Virus record (IMG/VR): IMGVR_UViG_3300030406_002873
Coordinates: 23,231 to 49,869 of that record
Source of the DNA: a virus
Reading direction: 5' to 3' (one strand)
DNA length: 26,639 bases
Below the pieces are notes generated by a model. That model searched no databases and had not been told where the DNA came from. It worked only from the letters and a program-made list of their open reading frames with translations. Of this stretch, positions 964 to 21,932 are shown one piece after another (position 1 is the first letter of the stretch; each line of letters starts with the position of its first letter). A program made the translations under genes and the position numbers.

Positions 964-1077
964 ATGGTTTCAAAATCAGAAAAGGGTCGCTTGATAAGAG
1001 AGCAACAATCTAAGAAAAAGAAGGCTAAGAAAGAAGAGGTTAAAAAAGAACCAGTTAAATCTAAGTTAGCAGAATAA
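964..1077 (+). CDS. Small lysine-rich protein (37 aa)
   Basis: A short gene reading MVSKSEKGRL, then a run of KKKKAKKEE type, ending KLAE. It starts 4 nt after the tail tube stop and is preceded by GGTGATTAA, the same ribosome site used by its neighbours, and the upstream TGA stop lies inside that site. The strong ribosome site and the clean fit between two tail genes argue that it is real. It is highly basic and probably largely helical or disordered, with no recognised domain. Its location suggests a tail assembly or virion role, but no function can be read from the sequence. Confidence 0.6.
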   Translation: MVSKSEKGRLIREQQSKKKKAKKEEVKKEPVKSKLAE

Positions 1078-1126: not shown

Positions 1127-1495
1127 ATGTTAAACGATAAGAAAGTTATTACAGATAAGAGTGTATTATTTGCACTAAATGAGCCTACGCTACATTATAT
1201 TAAAGTAGCACCCGAAAGTGAAGAATATCTTAAGGTGTGGATTAAAGAACCCACATGGCTTGAAGCCGAAAAAGCCTTGAATAGTGTGATGAAGATTGAT
1301 TCTCGCACACAGTCGTTTGACCTCGACCTAAATGCGATGTATCGCTATATGGTTGAAAATTTCATCTCCAAAACAGAACCAAGCCTATCTACCGTTGATA
1401 TGCTTAGATTAAGTCCTTTTGTCGGAAATCAAATTAAAGAGATTTTACCAAATCCAATGTTGATGATGCAGGAGGATGAACAAAAAAACGAATGA
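1127..1495 (+). CDS. Putative tail assembly chaperone, short form (G-like)
   Basis: A 122-residue protein lying between the tail tube and tape measure genes, the place where tailed viruses keep the tail assembly chaperone that binds the tape measure during tail building (lambda gpG and its equivalents). The sequence is mixed alpha/beta and ends with an acidic QEDEQKNE tail. An upstream GTG at 1118 is also in frame, but the ATG at 1127 follows GGTGGATGA at good spacing and is preferred. The last codons contain the slippery heptamer A AAA AAC, and the gene overlaps the next one by ATGA. The call rests on gene order, size and the frameshift signal rather than on sequence similarity that I can recognise with certainty. 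Confidence 0.6.
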   Translation: MLNDKKVITDKSVLFALNEPTLHYIKVAPESEEYLKVWIKEPTWLEAEKALNSVMKIDSRTQSFDLDLNAMYRYMVENFISKTEPSLSTVDMLRLSPFVGNQIKEILPNPMLMMQEDEQKNE

Positions 1496-1532
1496 TTAGG
1501 GATGCTTTAAAAGGTAAAAAAGCAGACCCTAA
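1483..1532 (+). promoter_or_regulatory. Probable programmed -1 ribosomal frameshift signal
   Basis: The heptamer A AAA AAC (1483-1489) sits in the correct register of the upstream gene. A 6-nt spacer (1490-1495) is followed by a two-part hairpin. TTAGGG (1496-1501) pairs with CCCTAA (1527-1532). After a small bulge (A1502 opposite G1525-A1526), TGCTTT (1503-1508) pairs with AAAGCA (1519-1524) around a 10-nt A-rich loop. Slipping back one base makes the next codons CGA ATG ATT, which is the frame of the downstream gene. The product would be a fusion of about 197 residues. Slippery site, spacer and stem all match the classic -1 frameshift layout of phage tail chaperone genes. Confidence 0.72.
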
Positions 1533-1719
1533 AACACTTTCGTTAATTATGGTTTATTCTCTTTCTAGCGCACTATCAATTAGTCCGTTAGAAGTTTATA
1601 AGATGCCTGTAAGTTTAGTTAAAGACTTACTTAGTGTTCATGCCAACATAGAGAAAATTAAAGCCGATGAAATGGAAAAAGCACAAAATAAAGCCAAAGG
1701 TGTAAGTCATGGCAGATGA
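1492..1719 (+). CDS. Tail assembly chaperone extension (T-like domain)
   Basis: A 75-residue reading frame that overlaps the preceding gene by ATGA and the tape measure start by 11 nt. It may be made on its own by reinitiation at the ATG (1492), or as the C-terminal part of a -1 frameshift fusion with the upstream gene. The core is helical: MVYSLSSALSISPLEVYKMP followed by a predicted helix and a basic, Lys/Ala-rich end. The 'PLEVYKMPVSLV' type segment resembles the T domain of phage gpGT proteins, which recruits tail tube subunits to the tape measure. The role is inferred from position and the frameshift signal. Confidence 0.6.
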   Translation: MIRDALKGKKADPKTLSLIMVYSLSSALSISPLEVYKMPVSLVKDLLSVHANIEKIKADEMEKAQNKAKGVSHGR

Positions 1720-3364
1720 TATTGATAAGTTAGCAGGTTCGCTAAGTGATTTAAATTCAACATTATCCTTGACCGATACTAAAACTTTGGGCTTTATACG
1801 AAAAGTCGGAGAATTAAGCGTTGCTACGTCTAAATCTGGAAGGGCATGGACTACATTCAGTCGTTTAGTTTCTGGAAGTCCTATATGGTCTGTTCAGAAT
1901 AAATTAAGAGCATATATTGATATTTTTGCTGGTTTAGAAAGTAGGGCAAGAGAAAACGCCAAAGCACAACAAGAATCGAATCAAAGAATTATTGACCAAG
2001 TTCAATCATATAAAAAACTTGAACCGCAATTGAAAAATTTGCAAAAGTTAAAAGACGATTTAGAAGGCGGAACTCCTTTTGTTGATGCAGAAGCAAGGGA
2101 AAACATCGAAGAAGCGGTCAAAGGAACTCTTGCATTTAATAGAGCCCTTTTAGAAGGAAAAACTGCCGAAGAACAATTTGCCGCAGGTTTGGATGAACTC
2201 ATAGATAAAGGTAAAAAACAGACTGAAATATTTACTAAAGCACAGGAAGCAGTTCAAGCAAAACTTAAATTTGAAACATATGAAGGAAGAGATGAAATTA
2301 AAGGTGAAATACAATCTAGGAGAACTGCTTTGAAAGAAGCACCTTCTGTTAAAGTAGAAAAAATATTTCAAACCATGACAGATAGATTAACTTCGATTAG
2401 AAAGTTTGTAACTGGAAATTATACTGTTTCTGAAAGAATCCAAAAAGACAATAAAAGGCGACAAAAAGTAGAAGATAGAAGAGTTAAGAGAGAAATATTA
2501 CAACTTAAAATAAGTCAAGGAATGTTTAAAATCTCACAAATGGTTAAACCAATGCTAAATATAGTTTTTAAATTCTTAATATTTTCTATATTTGCATTCA
2601 TGGCAATACTTCTTTTCTTGAAATTTGCTAGTGATGCTTTTGCAATAATGAAGGAACTAGGAATTTTAGACGATTTAAGAAATATATTTTATACCTCTAT
2701 TGAAATGTTAGGGGCATTCTTTGGATTAGTAGGGGCTTTCTTTGCAGGGGATTATCAAGCAGTTTTGGATTATTTAATGACATTACTTGATGGCACTTTA
2801 TCTATATTATGGTCGCTTGCTAAAGTAGGATTTAAACTATTTGTAGGACTTTTAGTTGGTTTCTTTTATACAATTCTTGATAATATTTCCATTGTAACAA
2901 AGAAAGAATTTTGGATAAAGGCTTTACCTGTTCTTAAAAAGTTTGGAAAAATTCTATTGTTGGCTTACTTTGTTAGATACATAGCAACGCAAGTAGCATT
3001 ATTGATTGGAATTTATGCACTACCAGCGATGATGGCAATTGTCATATTAGCGGCTTTATGGGCAGTTGCTAAATGGATTACTGGTAAAATTAATCCGTTT
3101 AAAAGAGCGATGGGTGGAACTGTTGGAGCAAATGAAGGAATGACATTAGTAGGAGAAAATGGCCCAGAATTAGTTTCTCTTCCTTCGGGTTCAAAAGTCC
3201 ATACAAATTCAGAAAGCAAAAGAATGGGTGGCGGAAATACAATCAACATTACAATTAACGCAAGAGATACTTCTGATGCAGAATTAAGACGTATTGCAGA
3301 TAAGATTGGAAATATGGTAAATAATAAAATTAACAGGCGAACTTCGTCAAGAACATTAGGGTGA
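1709..3364 (+). CDS. Tape measure protein
   Basis: A 551-residue protein that fixes tail length and lies in the tail lumen. Residues 1-270 are helical, charged and likely coiled-coil. Four hydrophobic stretches follow at about 283-309, 328-347, 365-390 and 412-458, typical of tape measures that enter the host membrane. The clearest marker is VGENGPELVSLPSG at 481-494, with a preceding Gly-rich turn, a common C-terminal signature in phage tape measure proteins. AGGTG lies upstream of the ATG and the start overlaps the chaperone gene by 11 nt. At the usual 1.5 angstrom per residue this length would correspond to a tail of roughly 80 nm (inference). The strongly hydrophobic centre could take part in DNA entry through the archaeal membrane. 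Confidence 0.88.
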   Translation: MADDIDKLAGSLSDLNSTLSLTDTKTLGFIRKVGELSVATSKSGRAWTTFSRLVSGSPIWSVQNKLRAYIDIFAGLESRARENAKAQQESNQRIIDQVQSYKKLEPQLKNLQKLKDDLEGGTPFVDAEARENIEEAVKGTLAFNRALLEGKTAEEQFAAGLDELIDKGKKQTEIFTKAQEAVQAKLKFETYEGRDEIKGEIQSRRTALKEAPSVKVEKIFQTMTDRLTSIRKFVTGNYTVSERIQKDNKRRQKVEDRRVKREILQLKISQGMFKISQMVKPMLNIVFKFLIFSIFAFMAILLFLKFASDAFAIMKELGILDDLRNIFYTSIEMLGAFFGLVGAFFAGDYQAVLDYLMTLLDGTLSILWSLAKVGFKLFVGLLVGFFYTILDNISIVTKKEFWIKALPVLKKFGKILLLAYFVRYIATQVALLIGIYALPAMMAIVILAALWAVAKWITGKINPFKRAMGGTVGANEGMTLVGENGPELVSLPSGSKVHTNSESKRMGGGNTINITINARDTSDAELRRIADKIGNMVNNKINRRTSSRTLG

Positions 3365-18687: not shown

Positions 18688-19575
18688 TTACCACCATTCG
18701 TCTAATTTCATTTGTATTTTTCCTGTTCTTATTGAAGATACATCCCAATTCATCGCTCGATAAATTGGTTCAGCCTTTTTGACTATTTGTTCTGCATAAT
18801 GTTTGTAGTCTGGAGTATAGTTGTCAAAATCATCATACGTTGTTGCAGATACATATTCTACTTCTCTCTTTTCTTTCGTCAAAGGATGAGTATATGTGTC
18901 ATGCACGTTCTTAACCTTGAGATATAAATAGGAGTCATCAAAGGTCATATTTAATCTTTCCCAAGCATAGAGAATACCTGCAATACCCGAACCAATTGCG
19001 GGTCTTTTGTAAGTAAAGGTTAGAAACTGTTCTGTTTCTGTTCCGCATCTATCACACCATTTAATTTTAATACATTCTTTTAAGTGGTGTTTCTTCTTAC
19101 ATTCTGGACACTTAAGAATAACTCTATCTTCTCTTAGACGGCTACGTTTTACAATATCAGAAGTATTTACTTTACCTTCCATAACTTCATTATATTTGTC
19201 AGAAAGATACTTGTTTATTTCTCCCATTGTCTTTTGTCCGACCCACATCTTCAATACTGTTGTTTGAACATCCTTAGCGAGTTTTGTTTCACTAACACGC
19301 TTTGCAGTAAAACCTGTCATTGTAAATTTAGGCTCATCAAGCCAAACTCCATCTTCCCAAGATACTAAACCTGCATTTCGATTCTTTGTTGTTCCAACAC
19401 CTAATGCAGAATAATACTTTTCAAACTCAAGAACAACTGGATGTTGTTCAAGATTTAATACATTAGGAAAGTGTTCACGAACTGAATCTTCAATCTCCTT
19501 GATTGCCGATTCAGCCTTTTCAATAGATTCAATCTGAACATAGATTGAATCCGTATGTCCATAAACTACTTTCAT
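18688..19575 (-). CDS. polB: Family B DNA polymerase, C-terminal part (motif C, thumb, PIP)
   Basis: A 295-residue protein that begins MKVVYGHTDSIYV, so polymerase motif C lies at its very N-terminus (Tyr5 to Ser10; usual form YGDTDS). It continues with KNRNAGL, equivalent to the KxRY/KKRYAG element, and a thumb. A zinc-ribbon-like insertion lies at 156-177 (CPEC and CDRC). It ends KIQMKLDEWW, matching a PCNA-interacting QxxLxxWW motif. The ATG at 19575 is chosen because GGTGAT precedes it; the longer open frame to 19611 adds 12 residues that overlap the upstream gene. It must combine with the N-terminal part at 20277-21932 to make an active enzyme. Asp9 supplies the motif C metal ligand. Confidence 0.88.
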   Translation of the reverse strand: MKVVYGHTDSIYVQIESIEKAESAIKEIEDSVREHFPNVLNLEQHPVVLEFEKYYSALGVGTTKNRNAGLVSWEDGVWLDEPKFTMTGFTAKRVSETKLAKDVQTTVLKMWVGQKTMGEINKYLSDKYNEVMEGKVNTSDIVKRSRLREDRVILKCPECKKKHHLKECIKIKWCDRCGTETEQFLTFTYKRPAIGSGIAGILYAWERLNMTFDDSYLYLKVKNVHDTYTHPLTKEKREVEYVSATTYDDFDNYTPDYKHYAEQIVKKAEPIYRAMNWDVSSIRTGKIQMKLDEWW

Positions 19576-19579
19576 AGTA

Positions 19580-19774
19580 TCACCATGCGTTCTCAAAGTA
19601 AATCTTACCATCAGTATATTGCATCAATTCCTGCTTGATAGTTTTAATATCCTTAACTAAGTCTGCGAATGTTACATTCTCTTCGTAAAGTTGGCCTATT
19701 TCATTTTCAAGCCTCTTTACTGTTTGCTTCAAATTTGCTATTTCTGCTTTTAATTCTTTAATTTCTTTGCTCAT
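19580..19774 (-). CDS. Small coiled-coil protein (64 aa)
   Basis: The protein reads MSKEIKELKAEIANLKQTVK, then RLENEIGQLYEEN, with hydrophobic residues every third and fourth position over about 50 residues, a clear coiled coil. The end (KIYFENAW) is aromatic. GGTGATATT precedes the ATG, and its stop lies just upstream of the polymerase C-terminal start. It may dimerise or bind a partner, and given its place could help join the two polymerase pieces, but this is only a suggestion. Confidence 0.62.
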   Translation of the reverse strand: MSKEIKELKAEIANLKQTVKRLENEIGQLYEENVTFADLVKDIKTIKQELMQYTDGKIYFENAW

Positions 19775-19908
19775 AATATCACCGTTACGATTGTTATAAT
19801 GGTTATTATATTTACGATATTTACCATCATCAATATCTTATTGCTTTTTGCTATCATAGATAACAGTTCTTCGAGAAGTTCATTGGTTTTGTCCATCATC
19901 ATTCTCAT
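19771..19908 (-). CDS. Small protein with a hydrophobic C-terminal helix (45 aa)
   Basis: A short gene reading MRMMMDKTNELLEELLSMIA, then KSNKILMMV and a run of Ile, Val, Thr and Asn to the end. The N-terminal half is an amphipathic helix and the C-terminal half looks like a membrane span. Several ATGs at 19897-19908 could be the start. The stop overlaps the next start (ATGA), the coupling style of this operon, which supports it being real. Function unknown. Confidence 0.45.
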   Translation of the reverse strand: MRMMMDKTNELLEELLSMIAKSNKILMMVNIVNIITIITIVTVIL

Positions 19909-20044
19909 CACTTACCTTTACTATAATAGCGTTTCTTTTAATGTTATTCATCATTTGGAATAATTCCTTTACTTCTTGTAAAGTAATATTCCATGTTTCT
20001 TCTGTATCATAAGATACTTCAACTGTTACAATTTTCTTCTTCAT
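19880..20044 (-). CDS. Small hypothetical protein (54 aa)
   Basis: The protein begins MKKKIVTVEVSYDTEETWNI, then a helix LQEVKELFQMMNNI, a strand NAIIVKVS, and an acidic tail DENDDGQNQ. The strand-helix-strand pattern suggests a small folded domain. GGAGGCATTTAT lies upstream, within the end of the winged-helix-like gene (overlap 26 nt), and its end overlaps the following small gene. No family is recognised. Confidence 0.52.
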   Translation of the reverse strand: MKKKIVTVEVSYDTEETWNITLQEVKELFQMMNNIKRNAIIVKVSDENDDGQNQ

Positions 20045-20276
20045 ATAAATGCCTCCATTTTTCTTTAATTACCCAATGTCTGTTTCTTCTTGTTCCTACT
20101 GCAAAAGCATACGGTTTCAATAATGACGCTATTCGGTTGCTCTTATAAACTGTCCGATGTTCACGTTCATAAAAAGAAACTATTTCTTCTAAATCAAAAT
20201 TATCTGGGTTTTTAATTTGTTTTAATGAATCAATCAACTTTTGTTTTATCCTGTAATTTCCTGAACTTCTTCCCAT
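20019..20276 (-). CDS. Small winged-helix-like DNA-binding protein
   Basis: An 85-residue basic protein. Helices at about 8-20 (RIKQKLIDSLKQI), 26-36 (NFDLEEIVSFYE) and 41-53 (VYKSNRIASLLKPY) are followed by a strand-turn-strand FAVGTRRNRHWVIKEKW, the order of a winged helix with a basic wing. GGAGATGG precedes the ATG, which follows the PolB N-terminal stop directly (TAA ATG). It could be a regulator of this operon or an accessory replication protein. The fold is inferred from pattern only. It is the first of four small genes lying between the two polymerase parts. Confidence 0.6.
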   Translation of the reverse strand: MGRSSGNYRIKQKLIDSLKQIKNPDNFDLEEIVSFYEREHRTVYKSNRIASLLKPYAFAVGTRRNRHWVIKEKWRHLYEEENCNS

Positions 20277-21932
20277 TTATTCCATCTCCTTTGCTTTAAA
20301 AGCAGCCAAACGAATTGCTTCTCTAGCACTAGCAGTAATACTAGCGGCTAAATCTACATCAGCCCAACCAAATCCTTGAAAGGCTACAATACCATAGAAT
20401 GATGCCATTAATCTTTTTACTGCCATTTGATTATTATACCACTTGACATATTCATTTTTATCATCATTCTCTCTTGCTTCTTTCATAAGACGCTTGTATT
20501 CATTTCTCAATTCTTTTAATTCAAGAACTGCTCTCGGTAAAAGACCGAGTTTATCTGTCTTATAATAGAGCATTTGTTCTCTATCAGTAATACTGAAATC
20601 TCTCGGTGTTAAAATATTTACACCAAATTCTGTTGGTTCTTCTGATTTAGTTTCCCATGAAATGTTTCTTGCAATCATCATTGAAGGATATAGTCCTGCA
20701 AAATCAAAAGCAGCAACATTAAGATGTAGTCCATTTGTTTCTTCACTTAATGGGTCATAAATCATAGCACCATCATATTCTTGACGCTTCTCTACCTTTT
20801 CACCTGTTGGTGCAATCCATGTAGCATTACGCATAAAATAGATTGAACCCATATGACTTGCATAAAAACAAGCACTAAATGGCGCAATTAGAAGTCTTTG
20901 TAATGCTATAATTGCTTCACTACAATAATTCAATTCATCAATTTCAACCATCAATTCAACATCTATCTGAGCATACTTAAGATATGTCTCAGTATCATTT
21001 AACCAACCTTCTCGATAGAATACATTCGGGTCTGGGAACTTTTCACTAACAAGTTTCTTTCTTCCCAATACTGCTTCAGAAATGTAATCTAAAGACATTG
21101 ACGGTAATGTTCCCCTTTGAGAGTCATTCCATTGTCTTTCAAAAGCAAGGTCTAAATTGAGGGTTATGCGACCCCCAATAGGCTGTTCAATTGGCCCGAA
21201 CCCATTCTTGCCATAATTGAAAACAAAGCCATTCTTAGTATTCTTAACGCCCTTAATTGTCCTAATTGGAGATATGGTAGTAGGGTTCAATCCCAAAGCA
21301 CACGCTCGCTCAAGGAGTTTTGGCAAATCGAATTTTAAACCAAACCAAGCAATTAACATATCAGGGTCTTTATCAACCATTGTTACCATAAAGTTTTCAA
21401 TCATATCCTTTTCACTATTAAATGTAAATGTAGATGTAGTGTCATAAACTAAATCACGTTGCAATTCTTTAGGAAACCAAACCCATTGAAAGTATTTCTC
21501 ATCATAATTATCATAAACTACAATAGTAGTAATACAATCGTGATATTCTCCACCTTGTTGCCATTCCATATCCCAATACCATTTACGCATTTCATATTCT
21601 GGTAATGAACCTAAAGAATCAACTGCATATCTAAATGCATATGGAACATCTGCTTCAAAGGTTTTTACAAAAGAACGTCGAGCAATATGAATGTCATCAG
21701 ACTTATCTACATAAACTCTAGTTAATTTTTCACCTTGAAGATTGTGCCAATTACCTTCTTCGTAAGTAAATTCTCTTTTTACAAATTTAGAAGGATTGTA
21801 ATACTTAGGTTGATTATCAGAAGATAGGATATAAAAATAAGGAGTAAATTCGACAACTGTTTGTCTTTTCTCTCTACCCTCTCTCCATGATGTATAAACG
21901 TGCTTTCCTGTTACTGTTTTACTTATTATCAT
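20277..21932 (-). CDS. polB: Family B DNA polymerase, N-terminal part (exo, motifs A and B)
   Basis: A 551-residue protein covering the N-terminal, exonuclease, palm and fingers regions. Exo I is WDMEW (Asp121, Glu123); Exo II is AWFGLKFDLP (Asp202, with Phe197 where Asn is usual); Exo III is YAQID (Tyr320, Asp324). Motif A is AFDFAGLYPSMM (Asp410) and motif B is KRLMASFYG (Lys506, Tyr513, with Ala510 in place of the usual Asn). It ends KAKEME, a few residues before the point where motif C would begin in a full-length enzyme. GGTAATTAAA precedes the start, 1 nt after PCNA. The missing motif C and thumb are in the gene at 18688-19575. Full-length archaeal PolB is about 770-800 residues; the two parts sum to 846. 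Confidence 0.93.
   Translation of the reverse strand: MIISKTVTGKHVYTSWREGREKRQTVVEFTPYFYILSSDNQPKYYNPSKFVKREFTYEEGNWHNLQGEKLTRVYVDKSDDIHIARRSFVKTFEADVPYAFRYAVDSLGSLPEYEMRKWYWDMEWQQGGEYHDCITTIVVYDNYDEKYFQWVWFPKELQRDLVYDTTSTFTFNSEKDMIENFMVTMVDKDPDMLIAWFGLKFDLPKLLERACALGLNPTTISPIRTIKGVKNTKNGFVFNYGKNGFGPIEQPIGGRITLNLDLAFERQWNDSQRGTLPSMSLDYISEAVLGRKKLVSEKFPDPNVFYREGWLNDTETYLKYAQIDVELMVEIDELNYCSEAIIALQRLLIAPFSACFYASHMGSIYFMRNATWIAPTGEKVEKRQEYDGAMIYDPLSEETNGLHLNVAAFDFAGLYPSMMIARNISWETKSEEPTEFGVNILTPRDFSITDREQMLYYKTDKLGLLPRAVLELKELRNEYKRLMKEARENDDKNEYVKWYNNQMAVKRLMASFYGIVAFQGFGWADVDLAASITASAREAIRLAAFKAKEME

Follow-up and report, generated by a model that had tools for sequence, protein, structure and literature searches.

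Evidence for a −1 ribosomal frameshift cassette, with a probable −2 variant, in the tail chaperone genes of magrovirus-like marine viruses

A virus genome (IMG/VR record IMGVR_UViG_3300030406_002873) contains two short open reading frames that overlap in different frames and are flanked by a tail tube gene and a tape measure-like gene. Here we ask whether ribosomes join them by a programmed −1 frameshift, as a tail chaperone pair of the G/GT type. The stretch of DNA analysed, referred to below as the window, is 26,639 nucleotides long and is part of the 49,869-base virus record, which is L081 in our set of loci. The features of the locus are as follows.

3–959, + strand: tail tube protein, its 5' end beyond the window (PF18906, E 9e-14)
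1127–1495, + strand: ORF1, putative G-like tail assembly chaperone of 122 aa (phrog_25860 matches; weak HMM match to the HVTV-1 chaperone)
1471–1475, + strand: Shine-Dalgarno-like GGAGG, presumed 5' stimulator, 7 nt upstream of the heptamer
1483–1489, + strand: slippery heptamer A_AAA_AAC, in register (X_XXY_YYZ in 225/225 distinct junctions)
1489–1719, + strand: ORF2, predicted T-like extension of 76 aa after a −1 slip (phrog_9001 matches)
1490–1495, + strand: spacer of 6 nt, which holds the ORF1 stop TGA (1493–1495)
1496–1532, + strand: downstream hairpin, 1496–1501 paired with 1527–1532 and 1503–1508 with 1519–1524, loop 1509–1518 (minimum-energy fold)
1709–3364, + strand: tape measure-like protein (phrog_19914, E 8.7e-5)

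A first-pass annotation, made from the letters alone, had placed the pair between tail tube and tape measure, the position of G/GT-type chaperones, and the profile matches bear this out, with PF18906 upstream and phrog_19914 downstream. The tape measure-like gene additionally gave short tblastn matches to phage proteins, several of which are annotated as tape measure. Among family members, 20 of 25 ORF1 proteins matched the tail assembly chaperone profile phrog_25860 at E ≤ 0.01 (best E 1e-7; window ORF1 E 3.5e-4), and 10 of 13 ORF2 proteins matched a second tail assembly chaperone profile, phrog_9001, at E ≤ 0.1 (best E 5.9e-5; window ORF2 E 0.024). The window's ORF1 gave no tblastn match in phages. 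The homology to annotated tail assembly chaperones supports an assignment of ORF1 and ORF2 as a tail assembly chaperone pair. A lysine-rich short ORF of 37 aa is present at 964–1077 (+ strand), between the tail tube gene and the pair.

The window also encodes PolB in two ORFs, an RFC-like AAA protein and an ERCC4 nuclease, in agreement with the Aoguangviridae profile (PMC10768690). The split PolB occupies 18688–21932 on the − strand, with ORFs at 20277–21932 and 18688–19611 and small ORFs at 20019–20276 and 19580–19774 between them. Magroviruses (order Magrovirales, viruses of Poseidoniales) are described as having a split PolB, an RFC small subunit and tailed-virus genes (PMC10768690). The virus is probably a magrovirus-like tailed ocean virus, and its replication genes point to an archaeal host.

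ORF1 starts at ATG 1127, with GTG 1118 as a possible alternative, and its 3' end reads caA AAA AAC gaa TGA. The heptamer A_AAA_AAC at 1483–1489 is in the ORF1 register, and the −1 frame is open from 1489 (CGA, then ATG 1492) through ORF2, whose stop ends at 1719. A −1 fusion from ATG 1127 would comprise 197 aa. The first-pass annotation had described a correctly registered heptamer at the end of ORF1 and a −1 slip leading into the second gene to give 197 residues, and both descriptions proved accurate. Among the 8482 codon positions of the 26 window genes, an in-register X_XXY_YYZ of any kind occurs 34 times, and A_AAA_AAC in register occurs once only, at 1483–1489.

To place the locus among relatives, IMG/VR was searched with ORF1, ORF2 and ORF1 alignments, together with one GTDB scan. 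This gave at least 475 loci including L081, or 476 sequences with the window, many of which overlap through repeated retrieval of one contig. The loci are the best 80 matches per search, and for some searches the best 80 of 420 related stretches, so that distant family members are under-sampled. ORF1 is present in all 476 sequences. ORF2 was recognised in 474, of which 436 have it in the −1 frame and 38 in the +1/−2 frame; in none of the 474 does it lie in ORF1's own frame. Left out of the counts were L351, where the contig ends inside ORF2, and L316, in which ORF2 is broken; both have an in-register heptamer. Merging equal junctions reduced the 474 sequences to 225 distinct junctions (213 in −1, 12 in +1/−2), and these to 119 representatives at 85%, with none lost for length; the ORF2 alignment A2 alone omits L171 and L178. 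Two loci deserve separate mention. Near position 1860 of L316 the heptamer is kept and ORF2 is broken or partly deleted, possibly through an assembly fault. L265, the sole GTDB match, is a contig assigned to a Maricaulis (bacterial) MAG and may be a virus contig placed in the wrong bin.

An X_XXY_YYZ heptamer stands in register at every one of the 225 distinct junctions, in the form A_AAA_AAN, G_GGA_AAN or T_TTA_AAA. The zone scanned was that in which the ORF2 frame is open upstream of the ORF1 stop (median of 8 positions tested), and in the two junctions with a second candidate the heptamer closer to the ORF1 end was counted. By chance, 15.5 of the 225 junctions would be expected to contain one, given the background in ORF1 bodies (93 in 11,933). 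The A-type comprises A_AAA_AAC (99 junctions), A_AAA_AAG (24, of which 12 are the +1/−2 group), A_AAA_AAA (10) and A_AAA_AAT (1); the G-type comprises G_GGA_AAC (49), G_GGA_AAA (9), G_GGA_AAG (4) and G_GGA_AAT (4); and the T-type consists of T_TTA_AAA (25). The codon holding the first X differs among members (GAA, CAA, GGA, GTA, GCA and ACA; ACG, ATG, TTG and GAG; GAT and AAT; and others) and thus the heptamer site is not imposed by the encoded protein. The heptamer codons themselves specify different amino acids across the A, G and T types. We note that the constancy of the third base in the codon preceding the heptamer restates that a heptamer is present, and provides no separate evidence. 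On a tree of 125 rows the first-triplet type requires 5 changes, showing that heptamers have been exchanged one for another. The first-pass annotation had named an alignment of relatives as a check on the heptamer; members that lack A_AAA_AAC have a different heptamer at that place, and the annotation is not refuted on this point.

The heptamers, the junctions lacking a start codon and the downstream structure in relatives strongly support the proposal, made already in the first-pass annotation, that ORF1 and ORF2 form a G/GT-like tail chaperone pair, and we consider it very likely from these sequence comparisons that they are joined by −1 programmed frameshifting. The alternative that survives best, which we nevertheless regard as very improbable, is that no frameshift occurs and ORF2 is translated separately, by termination and reinitiation at an ATGA overlap with GGAGG acting as a ribosome binding site. 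In the window, ATG 1492 does overlap the ORF1 stop and GGAGG does lie upstream, so that coupled initiation is possible for this one genome, and an ATG is the second codon after the slip point in 11 of the 12 junctions of the +1/−2 group. However, the best anti-Shine-Dalgarno match ends 15 nt before ATG 1492, whereas in 18 of 24 other window genes matches of −6 kcal/mol or better end 1–9 nt before the start. Moreover, 102 of the 213 −1 junctions (59 of 113 representatives) have no ATG, GTG or TTG in the first nine ORF2 codons, leaving them without a start codon near the ORF2 start, and in 162 of the 213 no ATG occurs among these nine codons. Reinitiation also leaves both the constant in-register heptamer and its exchange between A, G and T types unexplained.

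Less probable again is transcriptional slippage, by which the polymerase would yield a shifted mRNA on the A run. Runs of A can slip and the window has seven consecutive A (1482–1488), but 91 of the 225 junctions (those with G_GGA_AAN or T_TTA_AAA) have no run of more than four equal bases at the heptamer and keep the register, and a Shine-Dalgarno-like element and a stem-loop work on ribosomes. That the two ORFs are a single gene split by sequencing or assembly indels has a negligible probability: A-runs are error-prone and ORF2 of L316 is broken, but 0 of 474 sequences have both ORFs in one frame and three halovirus records annotate the same arrangement as a joined CDS. For the −1 group we therefore reject coupled initiation, transcriptional slippage and sequencing error, on the grounds of the start-less junctions, the non-A heptamers and the absence of same-frame pairs.

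Two further elements accompany the heptamer in the −1 frameshift cassette. The first is the Shine-Dalgarno-like sequence, which adds to what the first-pass annotation had noticed. The heptamer is preceded, with a gap of exactly 7 nt, by GGAGG or GGGGG in 86 of the 119 representatives (A-type 53/72, G-type 25/36, T-type 8/11). Within the eight upstream codons, the best duplex with CCUCCU has a mean of −8.37 kcal/mol compared to −4.17 kcal/mol for synonymous recodings (Wilcoxon p 3e-20, n=119) and is individually at p 0.05 or below in 49% of the 119 representatives. In three of the 119 (L074, L171 and L178) none of the Shine-Dalgarno-like 5-mers searched for was found. The upstream GGAGG is under selection, and we infer that it pairs with the tail of the host 16S rRNA and stimulates the shift. 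In bacteria, Shine-Dalgarno-like stimulators are of major importance and are located 9–14 nt away for −1 sites (PMC5009743, cited here and below from excerpts). The gap of 7 nt found here is shorter than this range, and counting conventions may differ. No description of a Shine-Dalgarno-like frameshift stimulator in archaea was found in the literature searched, including the excerpts of PMC5009743 and PMC8211752. The conservation of GGAGG/GGGGG suggests that elongating archaeal ribosomes sense Shine-Dalgarno-like sequences, like bacterial ones in dnaX.

The second element lies downstream. The first-pass annotation had drawn a hairpin with a 10-nt loop after a gap of 6 nt, and this is exactly the minimum-energy fold of the window (−12.7 kcal/mol for 51 nt). 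The synonymous-codon null has a mean of −5.9 kcal/mol and 1% of 2000 randomised versions fold as low. The 6-nt spacer is within the 5–9 nt at which a structure follows the heptamer of canonical −1 sites (PMC8211752, likewise cited from excerpts). The window-type hairpin forms in all 7 folded sequences of the window's clade (in L004 with one pair fewer); outside the clade this particular stem is not conserved, though a structure is.

Across the family the downstream structure is under selection. We compared the 60 nt beginning 3 nt beyond the first post-slip base to synonymous recodings, and obtained a mean z of −2.99 for the A-type (n=72, p 5e-29), −1.65 for the T-type (n=11, p 0.008) and a weak −0.94 for the G-type (n=36, p 0.016). 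Controls for the A-type at offsets of 12, 22, 26 and 30 codons gave z of −0.02, −0.16, 0.29 and −0.01. An earlier 45-nt scan of the 119 representatives was weaker, with a mean z of −1.13 at an offset of 4 codons and small negatives also at offsets 19 and 22 (−0.46 and −0.43). The T_TTA_AAA loci (11 representatives, for example L350, L353, L354 and L356) have a second stable region about 90–150 nt after the heptamer, with a mean z of −2.49 at an offset of 30 codons.

Many relatives have a longer covarying stem, also an addition to the first-pass annotation. It was followed in the 67 of 72 A-type representatives that are co-linear and entered the pair count, as a structure of 18 pairs (an outer 13-bp stem and a 5-bp inner hairpin). 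This structure was 71.1% paired, compared to 42.6–48.7% for slid versions, over which it has an advantage because it was derived from the same sequences, and 63.3% for shuffled ones. Its covariation score was 0.355 (0.149–0.180 slid, 0.234 shuffled) and cells with both sides changed numbered 167 (47–91 slid). The number of pair types did not favour it (42, with 35–46 for slid versions and 101 of 500 shuffles as high), nor did the number of pairs changed on both sides (15, equalled by one slid version). RNAalifold called no consensus pair on the 67-sequence alignment, which argues against a single rigid consensus structure, and the window itself does not form the outer 13-bp stem. Spacer lengths derived from minimum-energy folding were too noisy for use. 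Like the heptamer, the stimulator structure seems to have turned over, while some structure persists.

For the slippage itself, its efficiency and the roles of its products we infer the following course. Most ribosomes would stop at TGA 1493–1495 to give the 122-aa G-like protein, and a minority would slip one base back on A_AAA_AAC to give the 197-aa G-T fusion. The slipping ribosomes would be held by pairing of GGAGG with the 16S rRNA tail behind and by the stem-loop ahead. Taking phage lambda as the model, the binding partner would be the tape measure for the G part and the tail tube for the T part.

In 14 contigs, which provide 12 distinct junctions, ORF2 is one base out and thus in the +1/−2 frame. 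These junctions read GGAGGATGA(C/A)GAAAAAAAGGA and all 12 have the slip site GAA AAA AAG. GGAGG is kept in 12/12 and the structure has a mean z of −1.89 (six representatives). A −1 slip would lead to a stop after 1 codon (11 junctions) or 15 codons (L030), and the ORF2 protein is retained at 70–76 codons; an in-frame fusion needs a −2 (or +1) shift. After a −2 slip both lysine tRNAs would re-pair on AAA, giving ...KKR(M/T)I. Arginine is the first residue after the slip in 108 of 122 A-type −1 junctions, as it is under −2 in 12/12 of this group. By coordinates, the stem is one base closer to the heptamer than in −1 members; this loss of one base from the spacer and the change of AAC to AAG would each favour −2 slippage. 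In the HIV cassette the ratio of −2 to −1 shifting rises as the gap is shortened, arteriviruses have a −1 stop beside a −2 site, and −1, −2 and +1 shifts are all listed for tailed phages (PMC5009743). We suggest, with moderate confidence, that in close relatives this three-part cassette has changed from −1 to −2 ribosomal frameshifting.

Two other explanations of the +1/−2 group were weighed against −2 slippage. Separate initiation would suit the ATG present in 11 of the 12 junctions, but L030 has ACA at that codon, the second after the slip, and no ATG, GTG or TTG before codon 21; we find −2 slippage somewhat the better supported of the two. A +1 slippage, which was also considered and is not rejected, would make the fusion one residue shorter and without the arginine following the slip, and bacterial +1 sites have a Shine-Dalgarno spacing of 3 nt (PMC5009743), as against 7 here.

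In no tree are the +1/−2 members gathered into a single clade: the frame changes needed are 3 on the protein tree, 4 on the joint DNA tree, 6 on the ORF1 tree and 2 on the ORF2-plus-tape-measure tree, where starred branches force only 1. The AU test rejects one clade (joint p 7e-91, ORF1 p 9e-6, ORF2 p 0.006). Thus the frame has switched more than once, has reverted or has been moved by recombination; the AU result would also fit one gain followed by reversals, or recombination of ORF1 with ORF2, and we claim no number of independent −2 origins. The disagreement in frame state between the ORF1 and ORF2-plus-tape-measure trees (6 against 2) suggests recombination inside the chaperone pair. AAG occurs with −2 in 12/12 junctions compared to 8/37 near −1 relatives (Fisher 1.4e-6, ignoring kinship); when independent pairs are counted, the ORF1 tree gives about 5 to 0 (p 0.06) and the ORF2 tree a single pair. 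The literature searched, including the excerpts of PMC8211752 and PMC5009743, contained no description of a −2 shift on archaeal ribosomes. If true, the switch would be a natural experiment on the evolution of slippage step size, and pairs of natural sequences from this group and its −1 relatives would allow the choice of −1 or −2 to be tested.

The first-pass annotation had held that a frameshift at this locus, if real, would carry the rule to archaeal ribosomes for the first time. This does not stand, as −1 shifts have been predicted in the corresponding genes of the haloviruses HVTV-1, HCTV-1, HCTV-2 and HCTV-5, and a +1 shift in HSTV-2 (PMC8211752, PMC5009743), and an archaeal −1 shift has been shown experimentally for fucA1 of Saccharolobus solfataricus (PMC8211752). 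In addition, a +1 shift has been suggested for the HF1 group (PMC7230728) and a G_GGA_AAT site has been named in Hardycor1 (PMC7911831), both sources again being cited from excerpts. Tail chaperone −1 frameshifting in archaeal viruses is therefore already a known kind. As to magroviruses, a tail assembly chaperone is marked in the Aoguangviridae profile, which lacks the word frameshift (PMC10768690), and 'frameshift' is absent from the main text of PMC10160649; no paper joining magroviruses and frameshifting was found in the literature searched, outside which most subscription journals lie. What is new is that it extends to magrovirus-like marine viruses, that a three-part cassette runs through the family and that some members have probably switched to −2. 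A large marine family thereby joins the few haloviruses for which tail-chaperone frameshifting is predicted, and its 225 junctions provide natural variants of what appears to be an archaeal frameshift cassette.

The haloviruses share with the present family the gene order, the two overlapping ORFs and a canonical heptamer, and a joined chaperone CDS is annotated at the same place in the records of HVTV-1, HCTV-1 and HCTV-2. The HCTV-2 chaperone matches family member L267 (tblastn E 6e-5), and HVTV-1 scores 24.5 bits against the ORF1 and 15.5 bits against the ORF2 family HMM (hhalign probabilities 73% and 89%). Their heptamers are G_GGA_AAG in HVTV-1, G_GGA_AAC in HCTV-1 and, as in the window, A_AAA_AAC in HCTV-2; HVTV-1 and HCTV-1 also have GGAGG/GGGGAG upstream, and HCTV-2 has no clear one. 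The present family differs in being marine, AT-rich and magrovirus-like, and in it the Shine-Dalgarno-like element and the covarying stem have here been traced family-wide.

In phage lambda, G/GT is located between the major tail protein and the tape measure, a position that the present pair shares. Lambda makes a short product together with a low-level −1 fusion (PMC5009743), as is predicted for the present pair. The difference from lambda is its bacterial host. In E. coli dnaX the shift gives a shorter product, whereas that in the window would give a longer one, and the gene is unrelated. The dnaX architecture of a Shine-Dalgarno-like element, an A_AAA_AAG heptamer and a stem-loop is nonetheless the same (PMC5009743). 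Unlike phage Mu, the present family combines −1 and probable −2 members that are closely related and share one cassette. Nor is the −2 site of Mu known to be an A_AAA_AAG run. The +1/−2 group would nonetheless operate in the manner of Mu, whose tail gene pair provides the precedent for −2 shifting in tailed phages (PMC5009743).
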